The position numbers and the translations under genes are program-made. A stretch of 64,000 nucleotides of DNA from Paracyclopina nana (lineage: Eukaryota; Arthropoda; Copepoda; Cyclopoida; Cyclopettidae): positions 3,043,001-3,107,000 of the forward strand of contig JAGUCH010000008.1 in NCBI GenBank assembly GCA_019096065.1. Reading direction: 5' to 3'. The notes beneath the pieces were generated by a model, which did not search any database, was not told the origin of the DNA, and worked only from the letters and a program-made list of their open reading frames with translations. This document shows positions 9,001 to 57,764 of the stretch, in pieces; position 1 is the first letter of the stretch, and every line of letters begins with the position of its first letter.

Positions 9001-9502
9001 TGGCTTTACCACATTTTAAGCTGTTGGCATTAAAATGGAAGCCATGAAAGTGACTTCATTGAGAGAGACAGAGAGAGCTAGTCTAGATTTCATTTTGCAT
9101 TTCCAAGCCACCTCCCCGTCGTCTTGCTTGGCCTTTTGATGCCAAGCAAGTTTAATTTACATGATGTCTGCTCACTTTATGTTTCATTTCCTGGAAGATT
9201 CAGTCCATCAAGTCAAAAAGGAGGGCAATAAAGCGTGATTTCCCTGCGGAGCCCAACTTAAGAAGTAGCATGCGCTTTCACTTTACAATTTTATGCCCGC
9301 GCAGGTTGTACTTTGTATTATTATGAAAGAAGACACTCACGCGGGGAAAAAGTTGGTTTTTGCAGCATTTTCTGGGAAGGAGACAGACTGACCTGTCTCC
9401 AGGGAGTGAGTGGGAGTGAAAGAAGACTTTTGGGACAACTTGTTTTTCTCTTGAGTGAAAATTGATTGGTGTCTAACTTTTTCTTTTCTTTGTGTTTTCC
9501 AG
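1..9502. other. Gene-poor stretch upstream of the Klingon-like exons
   Basis: I see no exon here that I can support. Open frames are short, overlap on both strands, and show no recognisable domain or clean splice-site pair. The first recognised exon of the next gene starts in phase 1 at 9503, so at least one upstream exon (start codon and signal peptide) must exist. It may lie here as a short exon I cannot identify, or left of the window. Part of the stretch may therefore be a large 5' intron. Apart from one homopolymer tract I see no organised repeats. Confidence 0.5.
5537..5565. repeat. Poly-C/poly-A homopolymer junction
   Basis: About 13 C residues run directly into about 16 A residues. 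This is low complexity and prone to sequencing and assembly length error. No function is inferred. Confidence 0.9.
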
Positions 9503-12500
9503 GCGATTTCGAGCACCAAAGGCACCAGCCGGAGCCTCAAATTTTGAGCCATGACCAGATTTTCCGGGCTCAAGTGGGCGAAGCAATCGTTTTGCCCTGC
9601 AAAGTGGCCAACTTGGCCACCTTCGTCCTCATGTGGAAGCAGCAAAAGAGGGTCCTCACCGCTGGCACTCTGGTGGTGCGAAAGGACTTGCGGATGAAGC
9701 TGAGGGATGATTTTTCGCTCGAGTTGACCAACTTGAGGCCAGATGACCAGGGCACTTACACTTGTGAGATTGACGTCATGGGCAAGCCCATCTCGATTCA
9801 GCACAAGGTAATATTAGTAAGCTAAATGGAACAACACAAGTTGCTTGTTGCTGCTGCTGAAAACTTTGAGGCCTATAGCCAAGAACTTATTCAATTTGAA
9901 AAGTTTCTGCTAAAAGCATCAAAAGTCATTTGAGTCAAGTGGTTTTTTGGCCGCCACCGCAGCACCAGGCAAAACAACTTTTTTGTCAGCCTGTCTCAAG
10001 GCTTAAAATCCCACGTCTCTCGCAGGTCGAGGTTATGGTCCCACCAGCCATTCAGGCCATGCCAAGGGAGGGCAAGGTGATGACCCGCAAGGGCCAAGAT
10101 GTGACCCTTCGCTGCTCTGGCAAGGGCAATCCCAATCCCAGGATCACCTGGTCGAAGAAAGTAAGAAGCATTGGCATTAAAAAAGCATGAAGTGTAGTAG
10201 CACATTCAAGCCCTCAGCTCACATGTTTGAATGGGCGTTGATTTTTTTGTACTCTGTAGCAACCTTTGCTCCTACTTTGCAGTCTGGTCTGCTCCCATCC
10301 GAGCACAAGACCCAAGAGGGCCTCTCGCTCGAATTGCGAGATGTCGGTCGACAAGATGCTGGCACCTACGTTTGCACGGCAAATAATGGGGTCGGACAAG
10401 AAGCGAGCGCGGAAATCCAAGTGGAAATCAAGTGTAAGTGCAATGCATCCGACTTCATGTAGCAAATGACCTTCAAGGCTGCTTGAAACTTTCTTTTTTT
10501 TCTACTTGCTAAGCAGGCACCAACTTTCTTTCTGTTGCCTGGAAACGTTTGTCAAGGGACTTTTTCTTTTGTAGTTGCTCTCTTTTTTGCATACTACGTT
10601 GTCAGTACACACAAGTGCTGACTCATGATAATTCAGACTTGTTAAATGCTCGAGTATACCAGCTGGTATATCACGTTATTGTTATGGGTAAAGCGAGTGG
10701 GACATTTAGCTCGTTTTTTAATGACACACCACTTGTTCTCGGGGAAAGCAGTTAACGATGAGCTTTGCGAGAAAGTTTAACTAATTGCCATAATACTTTG
10801 AGGCTGTTAAAAGGACCATATCCGTTTAAAACTGCCTACGAGAACGTACTATTAGTGCAGAGCTTTCTAATCTCACCTCTTCTTGCTACAGTACTTTGAA
10901 GAAACGAGGTCAATCACTGTTTACAAATTTTGCCTAGATTGATGGATGCTTTTTTCGCATTTTTCCCTCGCAATAAATCTTTTCGGTGCGTAAAAAAAGT
11001 AGCCAAACAATGAAGAAAATAAAGCAGCTACGGCACCGCTATATGCTCGTCGTAGCATGGCGTGCAGTTTTCTTTATGGATGTTTATTTCCGTTTTGTTA
11101 GCTTTTTTGCGGCTTTTTTCTAATAACGACAACAACAACAACGGTTATGGCCTAATTTTGAACAGCACCACAACCAGTCTTTGCTGCGAAGGTTTTGTTG
11201 TAATAATCATAATCAGGGAAAGAGAAAAATGACCTCAAAAGCGAGCATAATTTTCTTTAGCCTAGTGCATTTCTCGCCTAGGCATAAGCTTTGAGGAGCA
11301 TAATTTCGCTGCAAAAAGTGCATTTTCCATGGTAAACGCCACTTTTTCAATCCTTCTGCTGCATGGCTGGCAGTCATTTGAGAGATGGCACTTCTGCTAT
11401 CTTTTGCACACACTTTTTTACTCCGAAGCTTTCGTAATATTAGGCATGTTTTTCCTTACATTCAACCACCGCCTTTTCATTTTCATAAATGGATTTCCTA
11501 ACCTAATTCTGTCACGGCTTTCGCCTTTCCGCTACTCGCGAAGAATCCATTCAATTACGCAACTTTTGAAGCCAAAACAAAAAATTGCAAAAATCGGCAG
11601 GAGATGCAGAAAATTAAGGTTTAGCAGCTTTATTTATTAGCCTCTGCCATTTATCGTGCACGCGCATAAAAGGACAAAGGAAAGTCCATTAATTTTGAAA
11701 TAATAGCAGATCGCGAGCCAGCTTTCTTTTGTGAGATTAATAAAGATTTCCTAGTAGCACTGACTACTGCGACAAAAGCATTATTTGAGATTAAGCGATA
11801 TGTCATCCTGCGGAGCCTGACACGCGAAATAAAGGGCTCCCCTGCATATAGTAGCAACCTATAATAATTGTAAATAATTCGTACGGCAGTCAATTACACA
11901 CGATAAATCTATCGACTAATAACACATATATAGTCCCAAAGTAAGTGCTGAAGAAAAAAGGCTATCGGAATTCGATCCTGATATCCAATCTGAAAAGTAC
12001 GATTTCTATTGGAAGAAGAAACCCATCTCGCACTTTTTTCGCCAAACTAAACGATTTTAAGAACAGTCTCCATGGATGATAGTCAATTTAGTTTGGCCTT
12101 GACCTTTTTAAAAACTGCAGTTGCACACACCCTTCTTAATTGGCATGATGACGCACTTGGTGTAGCACACTCTTCTATTTCAGCGCATTTCAGCAGAAAA
12201 TGAGCTCCATTATTCATATTTCCAGTTGCATATTTTTAGAACGTCGTTACTGCATTCATGGTCTTGCATGAAGTCGTACCTCTGAATAATTGATCCACTT
12301 GAAGTTGTGGCACAAAAGAAAAAGAGCAAAAGAGCAAAAAAGCAAAGTCTCTCTTATGTAGTAGTTTATTGTGCTAGTTTGAGCAGTCTTCGATCATGAT
12401 AAATCCGGAAGAAGAGCAGCCCAAAGATTTGCCTGATTCCGCACTTTTTCCCAGTCTATTTTCCAACCTTTTCAAAGCTGGCAAGATCGATTTCAATTTG

Positions 12501-25023: not shown

Positions 25024-28000
25024 CTATGGGCTTACTGGAGGCTGAGGATCATTGTCATCATTGCCTGGCTGTCCCATTTCTTGGTCTTCAGGCACTGCAT
25101 CATTGTCTGCAGATGCCTCTTCGCCCGAGGCTTCGCCACCAGAAGGCTCATCGCCCATTGCCTCATCAGTTGATTCGCCTTCCTCTTGCAGAGTATCCTC
25201 TTCTGCCTCATCGGTCTCTTCATCAGACTCATGAGTGACAACCTGAAAGTCATCATCACTGTCAGAGGCTTGGACCTTCTTCTTTTGAAGCTTGGCGTAA
25301 CGCTTTTCATTCAACTTTTGCATGTTAGCTGAGAATTCTCTCGCTTCCTACATTGTACAAGCATTATAAGTACTTACAACTACAATTAAGTAATGGCAGA
25401 AAGTTTACCTTAGATTCGTCAACACTAGATGACTTCTCAATATTTTTAATGCTACGCAGCCTCTTTTCTTGTTTCCTCTGAGAGCGTCCCGAAAGGCAAA
25501 TCCTCTTACGACGAACTGTTTTGCCAGCCTTTTTCTCGTCTTCAACGTCATCGGCAAGTCTTTTTTTGCCACCACTGGCGGTTGCTCTCTTGCCTTGGCT
25601 GGTTGAACATTCATCAGTCAACATGTCAGTTGGATCCTGTAGATCTTCATCTTGAATCTCTTCCTCAGAAATGATGTCATTAGTGACTGTGGCAAGTCCG
25701 TCATTGTCAATGATCATCTCGTCCTGATTGACATTGAAAAGAGTCATGGCCTCTTGGAGGTCGAGTGATCCATTGTCAAGAAGCTCTTGGTACTCCCTTG
25801 TAACCTAAAAGATGATTGATACTTTACATAGTCTTGTACCCAATTTTAATCTGTAATAAAGCATATAACTTACACCACGAGTGAAGTCCGACTCATTGAA
25901 CTTGTTCCGCTCTTTGGTGACTACCTCCAGAACTCTGATGAGCTTGAACACTTCAAGCTCTGTCACTTCATCCTTAGCATCGCAATAAACATCCTTAAAG
26001 ATGACCTGAAGGTCGTCAGAGAAGGGCTTGTTAGGTGGCCTAGCGCCCCTTTCCTCAATAGAAAGCCTTTCCTTGACAGGTTTCATCTTATTGATGTGAT
26101 CATCATATTCCTGCCTTGTCATGACTGGAATTTCAGTCGGAACGGCGTGCTACAAGAGTTTAGCATAGTGCAAAGTTTACTTAAAGATTCATTCAATGCT
26201 TACCAACATGTTCTCGCGATATTCCATGTCTACCGCATACATCGCATCCCTGAATGCTGCAATTGTTGGCGTGTTGTCCATGCCAGCACGTAGCACCTTC
26301 TGGCGATCGTTCGAGAACTTATTTTGAATACCTCCCCGGCAGCTAAGGTAGTTTTCTTTGATGCTGGTTGCCTTCAGATCATAGACTTTCCTAACGTATT
26401 GAATGACACTGCCAAGGACCCAGGCACTGAACTGTGGCGGCATTTTCCGTTTATAGTAGAGCATTTTGCTCAATCCACTGTATGTGCAAAAAGAGTGTTG
26501 TTCAAGCTAATTTTTCTTCTAGAAAACATTACGAAAGTGTTTTACTTACGTTGGAGTATCGGCAAAGGCACAGTGACTTGACGCCATTGGGCACAACAAA
26601 GCCTTGATGATCGTGTGAGCGATGGCAAACATGATGTTTGTGTCATCCAAGCATTCGAGCAATGGCTGCAAGTAGTACAACAAGTACTTCCTGCAGAGTG
26701 AGGACGCAAAGAATATATCGAACTGCTTGCCAACAGTCTTGAATGGCAGCAGTTGGGCGATCATGCCAACAGCGGTAGCTCTTCGCTCGGCAGCTGTCTC
26801 ACCAAGAAGCTGTACCTTTTGATCCATCTTTTTCTGCTCCTTGGTTAGCTGATCAACCTTATCAATGATCGAATCCAATTTGTTATCCAATTTCTGAAAT
26901 TATAGAGCATTGATGTTACATTAAGCAAACATTTTGGATAGAAAAATGACACGTACGCTCAAGGTTTTCTTGAAAGTGGCCGCCATAAACTCATTGGAGT
27001 CCTTTGACGCTCCAGCTCTAGCAAAAGCTTGAGTCTCGCTCTTCACGGCAGCTTTCAGAGCTTTTGGCAAATCATCTTTGATGAATGCTTTTAGCGCTGC
27101 AGCAAAATCAAATGCAACTTGATGGCCATGCTGATCCATCTTCTCCATCAGCTCTTCTTTCATTGCTCTCATTGCCCCAGACACATCAAAAGCATTCATG
27201 CTCACTGGAGTCACAGGACTCACGCTTGGGCTGATGTGTGCATTGTCAATTGCTTTCTCCAGAGTGCTGGTCAGGATGTCCTCTCCTTGCAATGCCATTT
27301 GGCGAGGGACAGTGACATTTTTCCTGGGACTTACTTTAGGGTCACTTGCAAGCATTTTCGATTGGTCATTGGCCTTTTTCGTATCGACTCGTACAGAAAC
27401 AGAAGATCTTGTAACTGCTGGAGAGGTTTGCTTCTCTTGTCCGGGCTTGGTTGTGCTCTTGCTAGAAGACGCAGTAGCTTGTGGCGGTGGCATGATTGCC
27501 GCATCTTTCTTAGGAGAAGGAGCTGCTACTGCAGCGGCGAGAGCTGCCATTGCAGTCATAACATCAGAAGGTGATGCTCCTGCCGGCAATCTGTTGGCCT
27601 GGATCAACTCTGCCATTAATGGAGACGAAGTTGCCGATTCTTTTTCAGCAGGCTTTGATGACCCTTTAGGCTGAGGCACAACAGGAGTTAATGGTTTGGT
27701 GACTGCCGGAGATTTCTTAGAAGCCTGCTTTCCTCCTAGAGTCTTAGCTGCAGATGGTGACTTTGAGACCGTGCTGACAACTGGACGATAGAAGCCAGAT
27801 GGTCCAGGTTTGGGCGATAAGCGCTTAAGCGGCTTCTTCACAGACCCAGCCTTCTTTTGAGATGCTCCACCCTTTGTCGGTGTTTTCGTGGACGCCGCCT
27901 TTGTCGGCGTTTTAGTGGTCGCAGCCTGTAAAGGTGATAATTGGAATGTAACACGTTGTCGACACTTTTAATAAACATGTACAACTACCTTAGTAGGAGT

Positions 28001-28598: not shown

Positions 28599-29173
28599 TG
28601 CTGTTTCTTGCCCTTAAATTTCAAGTTTGCTAAATTATTCGGCGAGCGAAAAATGGCGACGAAAAATGAGTGGCGGTTAGTTTTCGTTGTTTTCCTGGCC
28701 GCGCAGTAAGCAGCAGCAATGGGCAGAACCGGCGGTTTTGGCAGTTGCGGCTGCCGATTGAGTGTGTTCGGGCAGCCAGGTTGATCGGCAGTTACGGCAG
28801 GCTTGTTTAGCTAGCAGCAGCTGCGCGAGCTAATTAATAATAAAAAGTTCGCCAAATCGGCGGTGGTCAAAGAAATCGCTAGCGAGTTTTCAAATTGCAA
28901 AATTACGCGAATCTAGCATCCTTCAGTGTATAAAAAGTGCCGAATTGTGATCGCTGATGCCCGATTGGTAAGATTTTCACACTTTAATTAAGTTTTATCG
29001 AGAAATATACCTCTACGAAACTTTTGATTTTTGCCGATGTCCTTTTAATGGCCGACTTCTTTAACGAATGACGATTTGACATAAAATTTAATTGATTTCG
29101 GAAAATTAATTTGTTAGTGGAAAAAATATTCTCTCACGTAATTTATTACATCTTTAATTGCAGATTAATTAAA
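28599..29173. promoter_or_regulatory. Shared divergent promoter region of the transposon
   Basis: The only gap between the two divergent transposon genes. It contains repeated CGGC-rich motifs: GGCAGTTGCGGC at 28740-28751 and GGCAGTTACGGC at 28787-28798, with related CCGGCGG and GGCTGCCG nearby. A possible 5'-UTR intron of the transposase ends with ATTGCAG at about 29156-29162, just before its ATG. A bidirectional promoter is inferred from gene order, not from a recognised core element. Confidence 0.5.
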
Positions 29174-32100
29174 ATGACACGTTCACGGCCAAAATTGACA
29201 CCTGCGGAGAGACAAAAGCAGCGCCGAAAGTTGAGAAAACAAGATGCGGAGTTTGCTGCTTTTCTTGCACGAGCTGGACACGATAGCAACCCTGCAATAG
29301 TAAGTGCAATGCGAAGGGATGGAATCTCATTCATTACTCCGGATGATCGAGAATACTTGGAGAGGACACGTCGAGTTTTCCAAGAGGCACGGCAAGTGCT
29401 ACGTGGTGGTCCAGCTCATGACAATGCTGTGGATTCCGGTTCGGCGTCTGATTTGAGTCACGTCAGTGAAACTGATACGTCGAGGGAAAGTGTCGACAAC
29501 CAATCACCTGCCAATTTGAAAAGGAGCAAGTCAGAGGGCGACGTTCGACATGCCAATGTTGAAGTTGACGACAATGAAACATTTGTTGAAATGAGAAACA
29601 CACTTTCTCAAGCTTCCTATGGCTCTCCTGAAGGAAGCAATGGTGAAAATGGCGGCAATGTCACCAGCGCCACCAATAATCCATTTGTTGAAGATGAAAC
29701 TGATGACGAAGAGTTAGCCGCGAGAACATTTCCAGCGCCAAGAACACGGAACGAAAAGCGTGCCAGAATGGATGCAATATTGGCTGAAGGTAGAAGTTAT
29801 CTTAACGCCATCTCAATGCCAACTTCACTTGAGGGTCCTCATTCTGGATTTTCATCATTCGCTTTCTATCGTGGAGATGACCGTGATCGCAACCAGCCTA
29901 CGTACAATGAACCCGAGGCTATGTTTTCTGCAGAGCCGAGCTATGTCGAACAATATGACAAGTACTTCTATGACAAGTACTATTTGCCATCTAAGAAAGC
30001 AAAAGTTGCTGCATGCGTGGAAGAAGTCATGAACGAGCAATTAATTGAACGTGCGAGTCATTATGATGAAAGTCAGCGTGGGTCTTTTGCTAATGAGCAA
30101 GACGACACTCCCATCCGTAGGGAAATTGAGGAGGAACTGGTGGAAGATGATTTTGTTGTCCACGCTGATGAGCCATTCATCTTGGAGTCAGCCAGAGAGA
30201 AGCTCAAAAGAAAGTATGATTACACTTTCCTTCAACATGATGATAACTTACAATTCAACCAAGACAATACTGAAGAAGAAGAGGTTGATGCAGATTTTGA
30301 AGATGACCTGGACAGATCAGCATCCGAAAATCGAATTGATGTCATCCTTAATGGCGACAGTACTGATTTTGCTGATGTGAGTCAATTAGAATTATTATGT
30401 AATCTAAATCTGAAATAAAGCTATTATTTTGCCTTCTCTTTAGGATGACGAAACGTTAAATTCATTGCTCGATAATGTATCCATCACTGAGGATGACGAG
30501 GACAGCCAAGTCATCAGTGAAGCCTCTAGCTTTAACTCAACCGAGAATGAAAGCAAAGATGAAACTTATCAAATGACTCAAGGCGAACTTAGCTATAAAT
30601 TCACAAGAGAAGACAAGACTTATAAGCAGGTTTGCAAAGAGTACTTGGCTGAGATGGAGCAACCAACAAAGGAGGCTCGAAACGATTACCTTGCAAGGAC
30701 ATTTTTGAGTGATTGCAGCAAACTGAACTTGTCGGAGCGAGCGAGTCGTTTGTTTTGGGACAAGGAACGTGCTGTGAGGAATAATTATCCGTTTTACCGA
30801 GGCTTGAAATGCTATCAAACGATACGTCGAAGAATGCTACGAATCACTCCCAGGATTACTATGAAGTGGGAATTGCGCAAAAGAAACGGCCCTCTCAGCA
30901 ATCGAATCTACTACAAGGGTGATCATTATCCTCAAAGCAGATACCCACGTTCAAAGTACGAAACACTTTCTGTGTGGACTTATTCCAACATGGAAGATGT
31001 TTTTCAATTCCATCAATTGCTTCACAAAGAAGAGATAAGCGAAGAGCCATTCTACAAAAACTACGACTTTTGTATGGACGGTGTCCCTCTATCAGTATCG
31101 GGGATCGATCAAATGACGATCTTGTGCACAAGATTCTCAAGTTGCTCTGAGGTATACACATCAGGCATTTTCATTCACAGGAGAGGCAAGGAGACTTCAG
31201 TCTTGAAAATGCTTCAAAATATGATGAAAACGTGTTACGAGAAATGCTTCTACCTTAGACATTTCATTGCTGATTCGCCAATGCGAGCCAAATTAAAGTG
31301 TATAAAAGGCCATACAGGATTCTGTGCGTGTGATCGGTGCATAGCTTCAGGAGTGACGTTGAAAAGGCGAGCGAAGGAGGAAATGAAGCGCAAAAGACCG
31401 CCAAAGAGAGTTGTCACTGATGACGAACCAGTGGCGAAGCGATCAAAATTTGATAGAGGTGGTCAGGAAGAAAACAGGTACGGCGGAACTGTATTCTACC
31501 CGGCGAACACGGTTGATATGAAGAGGCGTACTCACAGCGACTTTCTTAACATTTACGACAAATTAACGGCTGCAGAAGGAAAGAAAGTGCTCTCAGAAAA
31601 AGTCACATTTGGCATCAAAGGCAAATCTGTGTTAATAGAAGATGCTGGTGTCGATATGGTTGAGACGTGTGATATTGAGCCTTTTCACAACCTTGGGTTA
31701 GGAGTCACTAAAAAAATTATTCACACCATTTTGCAGCCTAAAAAGGGCGACGAACAGTTTAGCAAAGCAAACCGTGACATTGTGAACAGTTTCGACGACG
31801 AGTGGAGTGAACTGCTAATTCCATGCGAATTTAATAGGCGACCGCGCAAAATGGCAACATCTCTTGTGCATTATAAGGCAGAGGAGTACATCAGTATTGC
31901 AACGTGTGGATTTCTTGCTTTCGCAAATGCTTTGCAAGGCGTTCACAACAAATTAAACCGTCAAGTATGGCTGATGTTCACCTACCTAATGATTGCTGCC
32001 CTTCTGCCACAACCAGAGTACGAGGCTCTGCTTATGTCAGGCATTTGCTTGGAGAGTCTACACAAGAACTTTTACTGGATGTACGAAAAAGCATTTAAGA

Positions 32101-32621
32101 TAATTAATTGCACCTACAACACTCACATCTTCTACCATTTGCCGGAGGTGCGCCGAAAAAAAAGACTCGATGAGATCAGTGCCGAACCTTTTGAAGCCAG
32201 TTTTCAATACATTAAGAAGATTATAACCAATAACACATGCTCGTTCTCAAAAACGTTAATGCAAAAGTGTTTCATAAACAAGTTTTGTGAGCACAGCTGT
32301 CAACGTCGAGTCACAATCTCAAGTAAGAGTCGTATGTCACGGTCTGAGGACACCATCATTTATGCTCGTCACAATGAGAAGCCAGATTTCTTCCAAGTGG
32401 TCAACGTAGATCCTGATTGTTACGTTTGCGTACCATTCATGACTGAACGATATCACCATGACGATGTTCCTTTCTTGAACTACGACAAGATTGGTGTACG
32501 GCGATTTGTCTGCAAAAGAGAAAATGAAAGAATCAAAATTAAGAAGGATCAAGTGATTGGTAAAGGTGTGAAATACCGATCTGTGTTAATTAATGTGTCA
32601 TTTTCGACCCTACACTTGTAA
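29174..32621 (+). CDS. EnSpm/CACTA-superfamily transposase, ~1126 aa
   Basis: Two exons, 29174-30376 and 30444-32621, join in phase 0 at GAT|GTGAGT and TTTAG|GAT. The N-terminal ~500 residues are charged and acidic. The conserved core holds DSPMRAKLKCIKGHTG, then CACDRC, matching the D-x-P-x-R-A...KGH-x-G...C-x-R-C pattern of metazoan EnSpm transposases. DIEPFHNLGLGVTKK follows, corresponding to the family's DYMHLVCLGV block. Such proteins cut and paste the element by a DDE-type mechanism in the nucleus. I did not assign all catalytic acids. The ATG at 29174 is chosen because a splice acceptor lies about 11 nt upstream; the frame is also open back to 29111. AATAAA stands about 30 nt after the stop. 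Confidence 0.82.
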
Positions 32622-39290: not shown

Positions 39291-39362
39291 GGGCTCAGCC
39301 GGGATTTGAACCCGGGACCTCCTGCACCCAAAGCAGGAATCATACCCCTAGACCACTAAGCC
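39291..39362 (-). tRNA. tRNA-Pro (anticodon TGG), copy 1
   Basis: 72 nt on the minus strand. The acceptor arms GGCTTAG and CTGAGCC pair, with one G-U. The anticodon loop is CTTTGGG with anticodon TGG, and the T loop is GGTTCAAATCC. A T-rich run follows on the minus strand (A runs at 39272-39284). No intron. The sequence is close to the usual animal tRNA-Pro. Confidence 0.95.
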
Positions 39363-39759: not shown

Positions 39760-39831
39760 GGGCTCAGCCGGGATTTGAACCCGGGACCTCCTGCACCCAA
39801 AGCAGGAATCATACCCCTAGACCACTAAGCC
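39760..39831 (-). tRNA. tRNA-Pro (anticodon TGG), copy 2
   Basis: Identical over all 72 nt to the tRNA at 39291-39362, same strand, with 397 bp between them. Flanks differ apart from a short A/T-rich run, so the duplication is old or gene conversion keeps the tRNAs alike. Confidence 0.95.
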
Positions 39832-52408: not shown

Positions 52409-52630
52409 GGGCCTGTTCACCTGCTTATTATGGCTGATATTTTGGCAAAATAACGGAGAGAAAAACTGAGAAACCGATAATTTTTATATTGGTGTATGAT
52501 GGCTTTTGGAACCAATAGGCCGATTCAGATGTCAAAATCTGAGAAATAACTTTACAAATATCGGATATTTGCATTTTTCAGCAAAATATCGCGCGTTATT
52601 TTGCTGATAATAATGCAGGTGAACAAGGCC
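52409..52630. mobile_element. 222-bp palindromic MITE, second of a tandem pair
   Basis: Same length and family as 52184-52405 and in the same orientation, with scattered differences. Flanked by TTA at 52406-52408, shared with the first copy, and at 52631-52633. Confidence 0.9.
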
Positions 52631-52633
52631 TTA

Positions 52634-52792
52634 GTCTTTCGCAAGTTTTGTATAGTCACGCTTTTTAAATAACTCATAGCATAAAATGTATTTAAATTGC
52701 CTCTGAATGTATTTTAAATGGCTGCTATTAAAATACATTTTATGCTATGAGCTATTTAAATAGCGCGTGACTATGCAAATAGTGCGAAAGAC
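52634..52792. repeat. Palindromic element, 159 bp
   Basis: GTCTTTCGCAAGTTTTGTAT at the left pairs with the right end GCAAATAGTGCGAAAGAC. Inner arms TAGCATAAAATGTATTTAAA and TTTTAATACATTTTATGCTA-like also pair. It starts immediately after the last TTA of the tandem MITE pair. Confidence 0.8.
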
Positions 52793-52794
52793 GA

Positions 52795-52965
52795 AGGCCC
52801 GGTCCTTAGCAGGTTTTCTCATCATTAGCTGGTGACGGGTATTTAAATACCCTATGTAGTAAAAAAGTATTTAAGTAGCTGCTATTTAAGTACCTTTATA
52901 CTACATAGGGTATTTAAATACCCGTCACCAACTAATGATGAGAAAACCTGCTAAGGACCGGGCCT
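52795..52965. repeat. Palindromic element, 171 bp, long near-perfect arms
   Basis: AGGCCCGGTCCTTAGCAGG at the left and its complement at the right. The arms extend over more than 60 bp each, including GACGGGTATTTAAATACCC, itself almost self-complementary. High arm identity suggests a young element. No clear target duplication. Confidence 0.85.
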
Positions 52966-53524
52966 AAGCCGATGCTAACGTACGTGCGTCAAACTCTTGA
53001 AAAATTAGGGTAGGCTATCCACTATTTTGTGCATATCAGTCATCAGCAAGCCTAAAATGGGCAGATTTTCATAGTTACCCTTTTTCCTTGAAGGTTACTT
53101 AATTTTACCATAGTTTCTTTAAATTAAATAATACTTTTTTGGTATTTTATACATGTTGGTTTTCGGAAGAAAGTTGCTATTTTGGCAAAATGTTGACAAA
53201 GATTGATCTTTTAACTGTTTCATTCAGCAATTTTTATGGTCGCCGCATTTTTCAAGCCGTCGACATTTTGGAGAGGATGCAGTTACATAAGAATTGCTGT
53301 CATGTTACTTAGCAGGAAAAAGGATCCAAAATAACAGAAGGAAAAAAGCTCGTATTCACGTTGCCATTTCTTTGTGCAGTCGTAGAACGTGACACAGATT
53401 TCCCTAGCTACTGAAGCACTGCGCACCCTAATGCCACAACGACCTATACACGAAAAATAGGAGGGATACGTTGGCCTCATTTGCCTCAAGGTAGCACCAG
53501 CCGCCATTGGAGCAAGAGAAAGTC

Positions 53525-56500
53525 ATGGTTGCACCTAGAGGTTGCAAAATATTGCTGGTGGTGGCCTGGCCTGACACTAAACTCCCAGTAGTTGGATCAA
53601 AACCTTGTGCTGATTACTTTTGTCCTGAAGGGCAAGACAAACATCTCCCAGCTACAGCTGTCATCAAGTGCTACTCAAATCCGTTTGTCCAGTCACTGTT
53701 AAGGCTCTGTAATGACGTGGAAACGAATCCTGGCCCCAATCCGAATTCTCCGGTGAAACGAAGATCCAATTCTCGCAGAGGAGCGGCCTCAGAAAGACAG
53801 CAGCAACAGCCTCCAAGGTAAGTCAAACGATGCATTCATTTTGAAACTCACAAAATTGCAAGATCGCAATCGCAGACATCTAGGAGAGTTGTGCTGGAAT
53901 TAATACTTTTGTGTGGTGTTCATCTACGTCATCTTCCCTTATCCTTCAATTGAAGTCTATGTAATTTTCGTACTTGGTAACTCAAGAAATATTTTTTAAG
54001 ATTCAGCACTGAACTTATTCTGCTAAAAAGAGAGCTAAAGGATGTGGATAACTTTCCTCTGCAGTAGATGAACACCACATTAATCTGCATCTCGAAAGAG
54101 TGACCCTGTCACAAGCTATCACACTTATATTACGTGCTATTAGCCACATGGTTGTTGCCAAGCTGTGGGCGTATTAGTGATCAAATTATTTTTTTTATCC
54201 AAGGCAAAGAAGTCGGGCTCCCAATTTTTCTGACGAGGACGCGAGTGATTCTGGGGAGCAAAGAGGGCGGGGCCGGTCACGCCTCTCGAGAAATGGAGCC
54301 GCACTAAAGGATGACAAGAAGTATCCAGAGAGCAAGCACGACAACCTCCAAGAAAAAGTACTTTCCATCGAAGAGCAGGTAATTGTTTTGGTATTTTTAG
54401 GGTTTCGCCAAATGTAGCCATGCATGCGAGCAATATGACGTTCGTACAATTCTCTCCCATTTCTTATCTAATAATGCTCATCAACAGATGGCTACGGTGC
54501 AAACTGCGGTAGCTCATGCGGAAAACACCGCCAAAATGGTGGATCATTTGACTTCCAAAGTGAGCCAAATCGACGGAATTGTCAGTAACTCTGACAGTGG
54601 CCTCCTTCGTGAGAATTCAAAGCTGAGAGACGAAATCAGTTACTTGGTGAAGACATGCAAAGCTTACGAAAGCCGACTCGTCGACATGGAGACTGAAGTG
54701 CAGGTATATTAGCAATTGGCTCATTATCTTCCGCGTCTTTGATCGTAGCATGGTTGCGGTTGTTATCGGTTCTTATTTACTGACGAGGTTGCGATGTCAG
54801 TAAATAAGAAGCGATAACAACCGTAACCAAGTCACGATCAAAGACGCGGAAGATAATGAGCCATTATGTGACTTTTAATAAAACGCTCGAGCGGATAATT
54901 CTGAGCAGAACCTTCAGGGCATCAAAACCCAGATGAACGAACTGGTCTGTGTCTACGATGACTTGCAAGATCGGCTCTATGACATAGACCGAAGTTGGCA
55001 GAATAACTTGGTATTCCATGGTATCAAACCAGACCCTGGTGGCGTGCATGAGAGCATGGATTGCTTGGAAGCCAAAGTCAAGTCCGTTTTGCGTACCACT
55101 CTAAACATCGGAAGAGACATTCCAATCGTGCGGATCCAGCGAATTTTCAACGGCTCAGACGTGAGAGGATACAAGCCTGTAGTGGTAAACTTTCAGGTAT
55201 TTGCTATACCATGTTCTTGATGTAACTCAAGCTTACTGCTTCATAGCTTATGCGCGTCAAAAACTTTGATCTCTTTTGTGCACGTAGAAATGGTCAGACA
55301 AAGAGGATGTGCTGCGTAAATCGAAGATTTTGAAAACTTCAGCCATCTATGTGGAAGAGGATTTTTCCAGGGCGGCCAAATTTCGCCGTAAGGAGCTGGA
55401 AAAATTTGCCAAGGAGATCAAAGCCCTCTCGCCCGACAAAAAATGCATATTCAAGTAGGGATAAAGTTGATTCCCATACAATTCTTATGTTCTTCTTTAC
55501 TTATTTTATGCCCTGTTCATGTACGCCAATAAGTCCCTTAGGAGAATGGCAAAATGCACGAAAAAAGCCAGCTGAATGCAAAAGAAATCAGATCGACTTT
55601 AAGCCGACTTGAAAGTTAACAAAGACAATTTAAATGCTCTGAATTATCAATATTCTCAGCTAAATCAAAAAGACATTGATTACAGCTTCTTAAAGTAAGC
55701 AGATTTTGTTATGAAAAATCTTGAAAAAGTTGAGACCAAATAGGCCCTAATTTGCCCATGAAAACGCTGCTCGGGCACCAGCTGAACTTGCTAATTTATA
55801 CCCAGCAGCAGACTATTTTTCCATGCCTTTACCATTTTCACATGAACAAGGGATAATACCAAGCTGTTGATTGTAATACGGGATTATGTTTTCACTCTAT
55901 TTTTCCTTGTCATTAACACGAACCGAGATATACTATTGCAGGCATGATAAGCTTATCATTGACGACCACGTCTACATTTACAACGATCAAGAGCATCGCA
56001 TAGAGAGGCTTCCAAGCACTTTATCAAGTGGCCTAGATGAGGAGACGGGTGATGCGGTCACTCTTTCAAGGAGGCTGAGACTAAAGCAACAAATGGCGAG
56101 CTCCACTACCACGAATGGAGGAAATTCAAAGCGTGCTCAGTCTGTTGAATCGATGCTTGATCGAATTCCGTCCGTAGTCGGCAATCATCACTCATCGGAT
56201 CATCACTATGGGGGTAATTCGAACTTTTTCGCCAGGTTCAGCTTGAGACCGAGCGGCGTTTTCATGGGCAACATATTAATCAGGATTTTTTATTAATCAG
56301 CTAGCGTTCAACATAAGAGCTTTATTTGGCTGAAAATATTCTTATAATGTATCTATTAGGATCAGTCTGATAAATCATATTTAAAAGTGTTCTTTGTTTT
56401 TAAATAGATAATGCCTCATATTTCTCTTTTATTTTGAGGCTGTCGTTTCAGCAAAATGAAACGTGATTTGTGCTAGCAATTTGTACGTATTTGCGTTATT

Positions 56501-56744
56501 TATTTCACCAGAACCAGGCGAGCGTTTTTTATGTGTTTTCCATTACTTCTTTACAGGGCATCAACAAGTACAAGGCCTTCTTACTTCCAGCGTTAGCTCC
56601 TTCAATGTGAACTCTCAAGCTACTCATCAATCATCGCCTGAGAGAAGATCGAAGCAGCGAGCTCTTGCAGAAGTTGATCAAGACAGCACTGACATGGATG
56701 TGGGAACTGGTGATGAGGCAAATAATAGCCAAAGGAGCAACTGA
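53525..56744 (+). CDS. Spliced LINE ORF1-like protein with N-terminal 2A peptide, 532 aa
   Basis: Seven exons, phases matching at every join: 53525-53817, 54204-54378, 54488-54703, 54909-55196, 55288-55454, 55942-56213, 56557-56744. Residues 64-71 are DVETNPGP, the canonical 2A ribosome-skipping motif, preceded by LLRLCN as in many 2As. A basic Gln/Arg-rich stretch follows. Residues 157-255 look like a coiled coil. An RRM-like region begins at NLVFHGI (about 264) and a C-terminal domain contains DKEDVLRKSKILK and EDFSRAAKFRRKEL. That is the coiled coil-RRM-CTD order of L1-type ORF1 RNA chaperones. 2A-like sequences at ORF1 N termini are known from animal non-LTR retrotransposons. Here the frame is broken by introns and no reverse transcriptase is seen nearby, so I infer a domesticated or retired ORF1. 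AATAAA stands about 80 nt past the stop. Confidence 0.8.
53714..53737 (+). other. 2A ribosome-skipping motif coding site
   Basis: Codes for DVETNPGP, matching D-[VI]-E-x-N-P-G-P. In known 2As the Gly-Pro bond at the end is not formed and translation continues from Pro. Here that would release a 70-residue leader, which contains the hydrophobic stretch ILLVVAW, and start the main protein at Pro71. Confidence 0.85.
54717..54863. repeat. Palindromic MITE in intron 3 of the ORF1-like gene
   Basis: 147 bp with near-perfect arms: TGGCTCATTATCTTCCGCGT at the left, complement at the right, and inner arms TTCTTATTTACTGAC and GTCAGTAAATAAGAA. It makes up most of the 205-nt intron, so the intron would be ordinary in size without it. 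No clear target duplication. Confidence 0.88.
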
Positions 56745-57764
56745 AAATTTTCTCCAAAAGCAAGGCTTTTTGCAATAGATGTTCCGCCATTAAAAGAATG
56801 AGTGTATATTGCTTTTGGAAAAGAATAAAAAATCAGATTTTAGTGCGTTGACTGGATCTCCGTTCGGCCACGTTTGGACGACATCGTGCCAGCTCGGTGC
56901 ATTGCCACGTTTTGGGCAGTATTGGGCAGCCTGAAATTGCTAATGGGATTGAGACACACTTTTCCTCTTATGTTACTCTAAGCAAATGGGTTTCGTGTGC
57001 ATACTTGTTGCTGTACGCTTGGTTGAGTAACAATTGAGATGACCATCACTCTGTCTCAAGAATGCTGCTAAGCTAACAGTTTTCGCTGAGATTATCATAA
57101 AAGCCATAAGGAATTGTGATTCCACTACTCAGCTATGGCTCTTCTCAAAGTACTTTGCTAACTTCTTATATTTTGAGGTCACCCATATGCCATGGAAATG
57201 ATCAAAACATGTCCTTCAAGTTGTTTTCACTTCCTTGTTAGGTAAAGAGTGAATTACAGGTAATGCTTCTTAACTCTTTGTGATGTATATACTAACCTAA
57301 TTGAGAGACAGCACAAGGTGGACAGAATGCAAAGGGAAACTGAATGCGAAGTACGTAGGATTGTAATGTGTACCAAGGGTAAGCCTCTGTTTTCGTTAAG
57401 GTTTCTTCTGGTAGGATACGTACTCACTCTCGATTTAATTTTATCCAAGGCTCTCAACAAGAGTTAAGCTTTCGAAAGCTTACAGCGAAGAAGACATAAG
57501 TAGGTAGATTTACAATTAGAGACAAGGTTAAGCCGACAAATAAATAAGGTCTTCATAATCTCTATGAGTAGGTAAACCCAATTACAGAGGTACTATATCC
57601 ATGCCGCTCTTTCACCCATGCCTATAGACATGCAAAGTATTTGGAGCAATGCAAATGGAGAAGATCGACCGGACAAAAAGCAGAGGAAGGATAAGCTGTA
57701 GTATTTAAGCGTCATAGACTTTAAGGTTTATTACGACGGAGGTGTCATCGGTAAAATAGGTTTG
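56745..57764. other. Intergenic gap between converging genes
   Basis: Contains AATAAA near 56824 for the plus-strand gene. No exon, repeat or RNA gene is supported. Confidence 0.5.

Follow-up and report, generated by a model that had tools for sequence, protein, structure and literature searches.

The copepod Paracyclopina nana carries a gene that joins a 2A (StopGo) motif to a LINE ORF1-like protein and is divided into exons, which raises the question of whether it is a remnant of a mobile element or a host gene that has kept the element's translational device. The gene lies on the plus strand at 53525-56744 of the stretch analysed here (the window), which comprises 64,000 nt of contig JAGUCH010000008.1 in assembly GCA_019096065.1. 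The analysis makes it probable that the gene belongs to a set of about nine old host paralogs derived from ORF1 of an L1-type LINE with an N-terminal 2A, and that the 2A was kept after the LINE was lost.

A seven-exon gene with an N-terminal 2A motif

An initial annotation had described a frame of 532 codons built from seven GT-AG exons, in which residues 64-71 read DVETNPGP, and all of this was reproduced when exon joining was re-computed. The seven exons are separated by six introns, all GT-AG, and together give 1599 nt encoding 532 aa and a stop, with no internal stop codon (Table 1). GC content is 44-53% in the exons versus 34-41% in the introns; stops occur in all three frames in five of the six introns and in two of three frames in intron 2. 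The gene is predicted to be spliced from these seven exons.

A 70-aa leader had also been proposed. The ATG at 53525 stands in a good context, but the length of the leader is uncertain: an upstream first exon is possible because exon 1 contains acceptor-like AG sites. The frame of exon 1 is open from 53495. Following the leader and a basic/polar linker, heptad periodicity was found in every segment scanned from residues 104-173 to 196-265, across exons 2-4 (nominal p 0.003-0.027, 300 shuffles per segment), and a second, weaker patch lies at about 324-417 (p down to 0.017).

Table 1. Features of the focal gene in window positions, and the paralog loci of the family. Core introns are given in focal residue numbering/phase.
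Feature	Position	Strand	Remarks
Exon 1	53525..53817	+	leader and 2A; ATG start in GTC ATG G context; start codon uncertain
2A/StopGo core octapeptide	53714..53737	+	DVETNPGP, residues 64-71; LLRLCN directly before
Exon 2	54204..54378	+	basic/polar linker; putative coiled coil begins
Exon 3	54488..54703	+	putative coiled coil
Palindromic MITE-like insertion	54717..54863		in intron 3; 147 bp; 68-nt arms, 93%
Exon 4	54909..55196	+	putative coiled coil ends; first part of RRM (NNLVFHGI...VVVNFQ)
Exon 5	55288..55454	+	remainder of RRM and CTD start (EEDFSR...RRKEL)
Exon 6	55942..56213	+	last part of CTD, then beginning of Ser/His-rich tail; tail based on open frame and splice sites
Exon 7	56557..56744	+	tail; TGA stop 56742-56744; weakest-supported exon
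AATAAA, possible poly(A) signal	56825..56830	+	about 80 nt past stop; read by eye
Focal core introns	324/0, 380/2
Paralog C9	C9:2585k		core intron 367/0
Paralog C8a	C8:1656k		core intron 284/0
Paralog C8b	C8:1952k		core intron 294/0
Paralog C2	C2:4158k		core introns 248/0, 367/0
Paralog C7	C7:491k		core intron 321/1
Paralog C4	C4:7409k		core introns 284/0, 357/0
Paralog C8d	C8:4298k
Paralog C1	C1:9779k

The MITE-like element in intron 3 has at least 34 other copies in the genome at 95-100% identity, and its family is recent and possibly active. Creation of the intron by this element was considered and rejected, because the element sits inside intron 3 and supplies neither splice site. Upstream of the gene, inverted-repeat elements adjoin each other at 52627-52968, and the inverted repeat at 52795-52965 (85-nt arms, 94%) has at least six copies elsewhere at 97-98%.

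About nine divergent loci share a constrained core

A protein search of the 92-Mb genome with the focal protein returned 25 matches, comprising its own seven exons, 16 matches in eight other loci and two weak matches (E 0.07 and 0.85). Nine loci, the focal gene included, therefore have a similar core, which corresponds to focal exons 4-6. Against the focal core, the paralog cores show 31-44% identity; the weakest paralog, C1, is reached with E 0.015 from the focal protein and 7.7e-6 from C8d. For the paralogs, complete spliced models are approximate, and their use was confined to the 2A exon and the core introns. No non-self protein match exceeded 44% identity (27 of 27 candidates scored), and at the DNA level, where 40 of 890 candidates were scored, no exon matched anything other than itself. 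The high-copy, near-identical copies that the initial annotation had named as speaking against it were not seen among the candidates scored in either search. A scan of IMG/VR found no relative. The stretch downstream of C8b encodes parts of a SIK3-like kinase, its exons matching Pkinase and SIK3 UBA.

Codon comparison of seven members (21 pairs), in which an insertion of about 17 codons in C7 was skipped, gave pN of 0.35-0.48 and pS of 0.71-0.94 in the core. No estimate of dS was obtainable in 18 of the 21 pairs, and dS was 2.2-3.2 in the other three, and identity by codon position was 52/65/33% for positions 1/2/3. High pS with lower pN indicates long-standing conservation of the core protein; as read from the paralogs, this long constraint on the core may include a period spent within the LINE.

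Similarity did not extend in the same way to the C-terminal tail. Motifs of the form SPxK and SxESL appeared to be common to five members, in tails that an aligner had selected with the focal protein as its guide, but the claim of tail conservation was dropped because the shuffle control was beaten in only one of six paralogs (C2, p 0.025; cut-off p <0.05). For C8b and C8a, the tail score was lower than the mean of the shuffled tails.

The core matches L1 ORF1p

Scans of Pfam and PDB with the focal protein singly gave no ORF1 match, and Pfam Transposase_22 matched none of seven members at E 1 and nothing in the genome. A profile built from all nine cores (A2) was then compared with 177,635 PDB sequences, and placed 2ldy first (E 8.4e-5) and 2w7a (LINE-1 ORF1P) second (E 0.0049), with the next match at 0.28. 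The label of entry 2ldy says no more than 'ORF1 codes for a 40 kDa product'; its identification as L1 ORF1p comes from the residues that it has in common with 2w7a in the alignment. A seven-member profile (A1) ranked 2w7a first, though at no better than E 0.075. The nine-core alignment to L1 ORF1p is collinear with small gaps, running from NLxxxG through the RRM and the ED-S segment into the CTD. The L1-type ORF1 homology with RRM and CTD signatures that had been read from the letters was thereby borne out. The proposal of an exapted ORF1 holds as regards this homology; its picture of a single gene gives way to one of about nine related genes.

No LINE partner was found

An endonuclease/reverse transcriptase partner beside the focal gene had been reported missing, and searches with RVT_1, PF14529 and PF03372 agreed. 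None of the 150 RVT_1 hits scored, from 658 candidates genome-wide, fell inside the nine loci; the scored matches listed are about 471-501 nt long, which we take to mark the LTR type, and LINE reverse transcriptases may occur among the candidates beyond those scored. PF14529 (Exo_endo_phos_2, the LINE endonuclease family) had no genome match (2 candidates), and PF03372 (Exo_endo_phos) had 10 from 18 candidates, a number that would fit cellular enzymes. One of these 10, lying about 1-2 kb from C8d, was inspected as a candidate LINE endonuclease and rejected, since, judged by eye from a motif of that enzyme, it looks like a neutral sphingomyelinase encoded in several exons. In these family searches the control genomes that matched, and so served as positive controls, were all prokaryotic. 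APE-type LINEs seem to be absent or rare in the genome, while its RT hits are many and apparently LTR-type.

Open frames were also examined, 20 being chosen (11 in the window, nine in the paralog loci) from the 90 frames in the window that are 90 aa or longer and the 118 in the loci that are 110 aa or longer. None of the 20 showed a reverse transcriptase or endonuclease; they gave host domains, weak sub-threshold hits or no hits. Elsewhere in the window, an immunoglobulin V-set/I-set exon lies at 9466-9822 on the plus strand (E 6.9e-10), an open frame of 348 aa without a Pfam match at 26924-27967 on the minus strand, and two successive plus-strand frames, also without a Pfam match, at 29096-30415 (440 aa) and 30444-32618 (725 aa). 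Two tRNA-Pro(TGG) genes with equal scores lie about 400 bp apart on the minus strand (39291-39362 and 39760-39831). The cuticle domain Chitin_bind_4, which marks arthropods, had 84 matches in the genome, all over the cut-off.

These results bear on a quite unlikely alternative, that of a host RRM/coiled-coil family that never derived from a LINE and gained its 2A independently. Against it, the only PDB matches under E 0.01 are L1 ORF1p, collinear from NLxxxG through ED-S, and N-terminal 2A in LINE ORF1 is reportedly known already, Odon et al. being said to have described it in 2013 in the N-terminal part of the ORF1 protein of APE-type non-LTR retrotransposons. What it would account for is that the genome searches turned up no LINE carrying this ORF1 and that Transposase_22 went unmatched; moreover, 2A sequences do occur in host NLR genes of the sea urchin (PMC4981915).

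The exact 2A pattern occurs only at family loci and is mostly retained

DVETNPGP is encoded once in the 92 Mb, and the pattern D(V/I)ExNPGP seven times, against zero in a reversed control. All seven sites are at ORF1-like loci, on the same strand and 0.3-4.4 kb upstream of the core, and the 2A exon of the paralogs is predicted to be spliced to the core, least surely in C8b, where the distance is 4.4 kb. No 2A motif was seen at the two remaining of the nine loci, C7 and C1. Allowing any residue at the first position gave nine genome hits; around the two extra sites, with E or V there, the 3-kb loci yielded no convincing core (best tblastn E 0.21), and the sites were rejected as members, as they lie outside the family and their first residue is not D, G, C or N.

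A random open frame with a DVETNPGP arisen by chance is thus an exceedingly improbable explanation. The gene model is purely sequence-based and exon 7 weakly supported, which is what such an explanation would draw on; the rarity of the motif, the empty reversed control and the absence of a core at the extra relaxed sites oppose it, and for the core it is excluded by paralog conservation and by the profile matches to L1 ORF1p.

The fixed residues of the 2A core are intact in seven of the nine loci identified by their core, at silent-site divergence at or near saturation, and they are intact in the focal gene, in agreement with the annotation's view that 2A was kept there. Position p10 is S, C or A in all seven 2A members; position p11 is G in C9, C2 and C4, while the focal gene, C8a, C8b and C8d carry N there. 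Leucine-rich upstream classes in which (A/S/C)G stands next to the D have been described (Li et al. 2026, PMC12846837). The upstream context of the focal family, Leu-rich with a small p10, is near the LLLLSG-like class of that article, but the focal p11 is N, and we regard the context as fitting the L-rich class in part.

It is also worth weighing a fossil 2A, in which the motif is retained without skipping and one 532-aa protein is made. Asn rather than Gly at p11 in four of seven members, the focal gene among them, speaks for it, given the strong preference for G there when the core starts with D and the essential role of the upstream context (section 10 of PMC12846837). Retention of the fixed residues despite saturated or nearly saturated silent sites, and a small p10 residue in every 2A member, speak the other way, and we hold a fossil motif to be rather unlikely.

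With the nearest ATG as start, the leaders of C2, C8b and C4 would be 21, 21 and 28 residues long up to the skip site. The maximum 9-residue hydropathy is 1.8 in C2, 3.1 in C8b and 3.1 in C4; it reaches 2.3 in the focal gene, C9 and C8d, and 0.2 in C8a. Three paralogs (C2, C8b and C4) thus likely encode hydrophobic leaders of 21-28 aa.

Intron positions suggest that spliced genes were duplicated

Introns in the core were modelled in all nine loci, those of C8d and C1 being uncertain in position. Two positions are each common to a pair of genes, 284/0 to C8a and C4, and 367/0 to C9 and C2; neither of the two focal core introns is common to any paralog. For two coincidences in seven genes, P is 0.003 (random phase) or 0.007 (phase-matched) if placement is uniform, and preferred insertion sites would weaken this value. 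The comparison covered seven members over residues 240-407, leaving aside C8d, C1, introns upstream of residue 240 and a 54-nt intron made by the aligner in C7, where the stretch reads as the insertion of about 17 codons. Since positions are common to pairs, at least some of the duplications probably copied spliced genes. The introns may have been gained after exaptation, or the family may have spread in spliced form and later lost introns.

The nine-member tree is star-like with long end branches, and none of its six inner branches is supported; because of this, one exaptation and several exaptations are indistinguishable. Such a tree, together with intron positions that are mostly not common, is expected of separate LINE insertions, and two of nine loci lack 2A. 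The loci could on these grounds be relics, that is, old ORF1 copies without EN-RT that are decaying, in which the 'introns' are insertions or decay read as splice sites. Yet nothing interrupts the focal frame along its seven exons, seven of nine loci retain every fixed 2A residue at or near silent-site saturation, identity falls at the third codon position as set out above, and two intron positions recur in pairs at the probabilities given. We therefore judge decaying relics unlikely, and derivation of host genes from a 2A-bearing ORF1 remains the preferred reading.

Discussion

With L1 ORF1p (Pfam Transposase_22; 2ldy, 2w7a) the focal family has in common the order of a putative coiled coil, RRM and CTD, and the profile match. 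It differs in being intron-bearing and low-copy, with no ORF2 EN-RT found, in its long Ser-rich tail and N-terminal 2A, and in that single members fall below a Transposase_22 match. Compared with the 2A-bearing ORF1 of APE-type non-LTR elements, the family again has introns and low copy number, and no endonuclease/RT element was found with it. Another comparison is mammalian L1TD1, which to our knowledge has no 2A; the focal gene represents one ORF1 spread over seven exons, has about nine paralogs and keeps its 2A. In L1TD1 the coding sequence of an ORF1 has been domesticated; the gene has introns and lacks ORF2, and the human gene has two coding exons that are each homologous to ORF1. In 2014 it was described as the sole domesticated gene known whose coding sequence comes almost wholly from LINE-1 (PMC4161310). 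In sea-urchin NLR proteins, N-terminal 2As whose activity was assayed serve as both signal and skipping sequence (PMC4981915). The likeness to the present family lies in an N-terminal 2A in a host gene, with a hydrophobic leader in several paralogs; the downstream protein is ORF1 in place of NLR, the focal leader is longer, that of C8a is not hydrophobic, and here the features are read from sequence.

We propose that the mRNA is spliced from its seven exons and that the ribosome would first make the Leu-rich leader. A skip at NPG/P (Gly70/Pro71) would free this leader and yield a separate protein of about 462 aa starting at Pro71, which may assemble by its coiled coil into a particle, probably a trimer, that binds RNA by way of the RRM and CTD in the manner of ORF1p. 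The targets of the particle might now be cellular RNAs, or it might counter other elements. Where a paralog has a leader that is short and hydrophobic, molecules that escape skipping may reach the ER, such that one mRNA would serve two locations. We put forward tentatively, at somewhat less than an even chance, that about nine cellular genes outlived their LINE and kept skipping as part of host expression, producing from one spliced mRNA either a hydrophobic leader and a free ORF1p-type RNA-binding protein or, in molecules that do not skip, a membrane/secretory fusion.

2A/StopGo sequences in cellular genes are described as rare (PMC12846837). A 2A-bearing, intron-bearing ORF1 gene family was not found among the literature matches listed, as judged by title and the start of the abstract, and Rao 2025 on eukaryotic 2As may include such genes. 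If several intron-bearing ORF1 genes do retain 2A in the absence of their LINE, this would show that translational skipping can become fixed as a host trait, and their seven natural 2A sequences with different leaders would offer a means of testing skipping against signal-sequence function.
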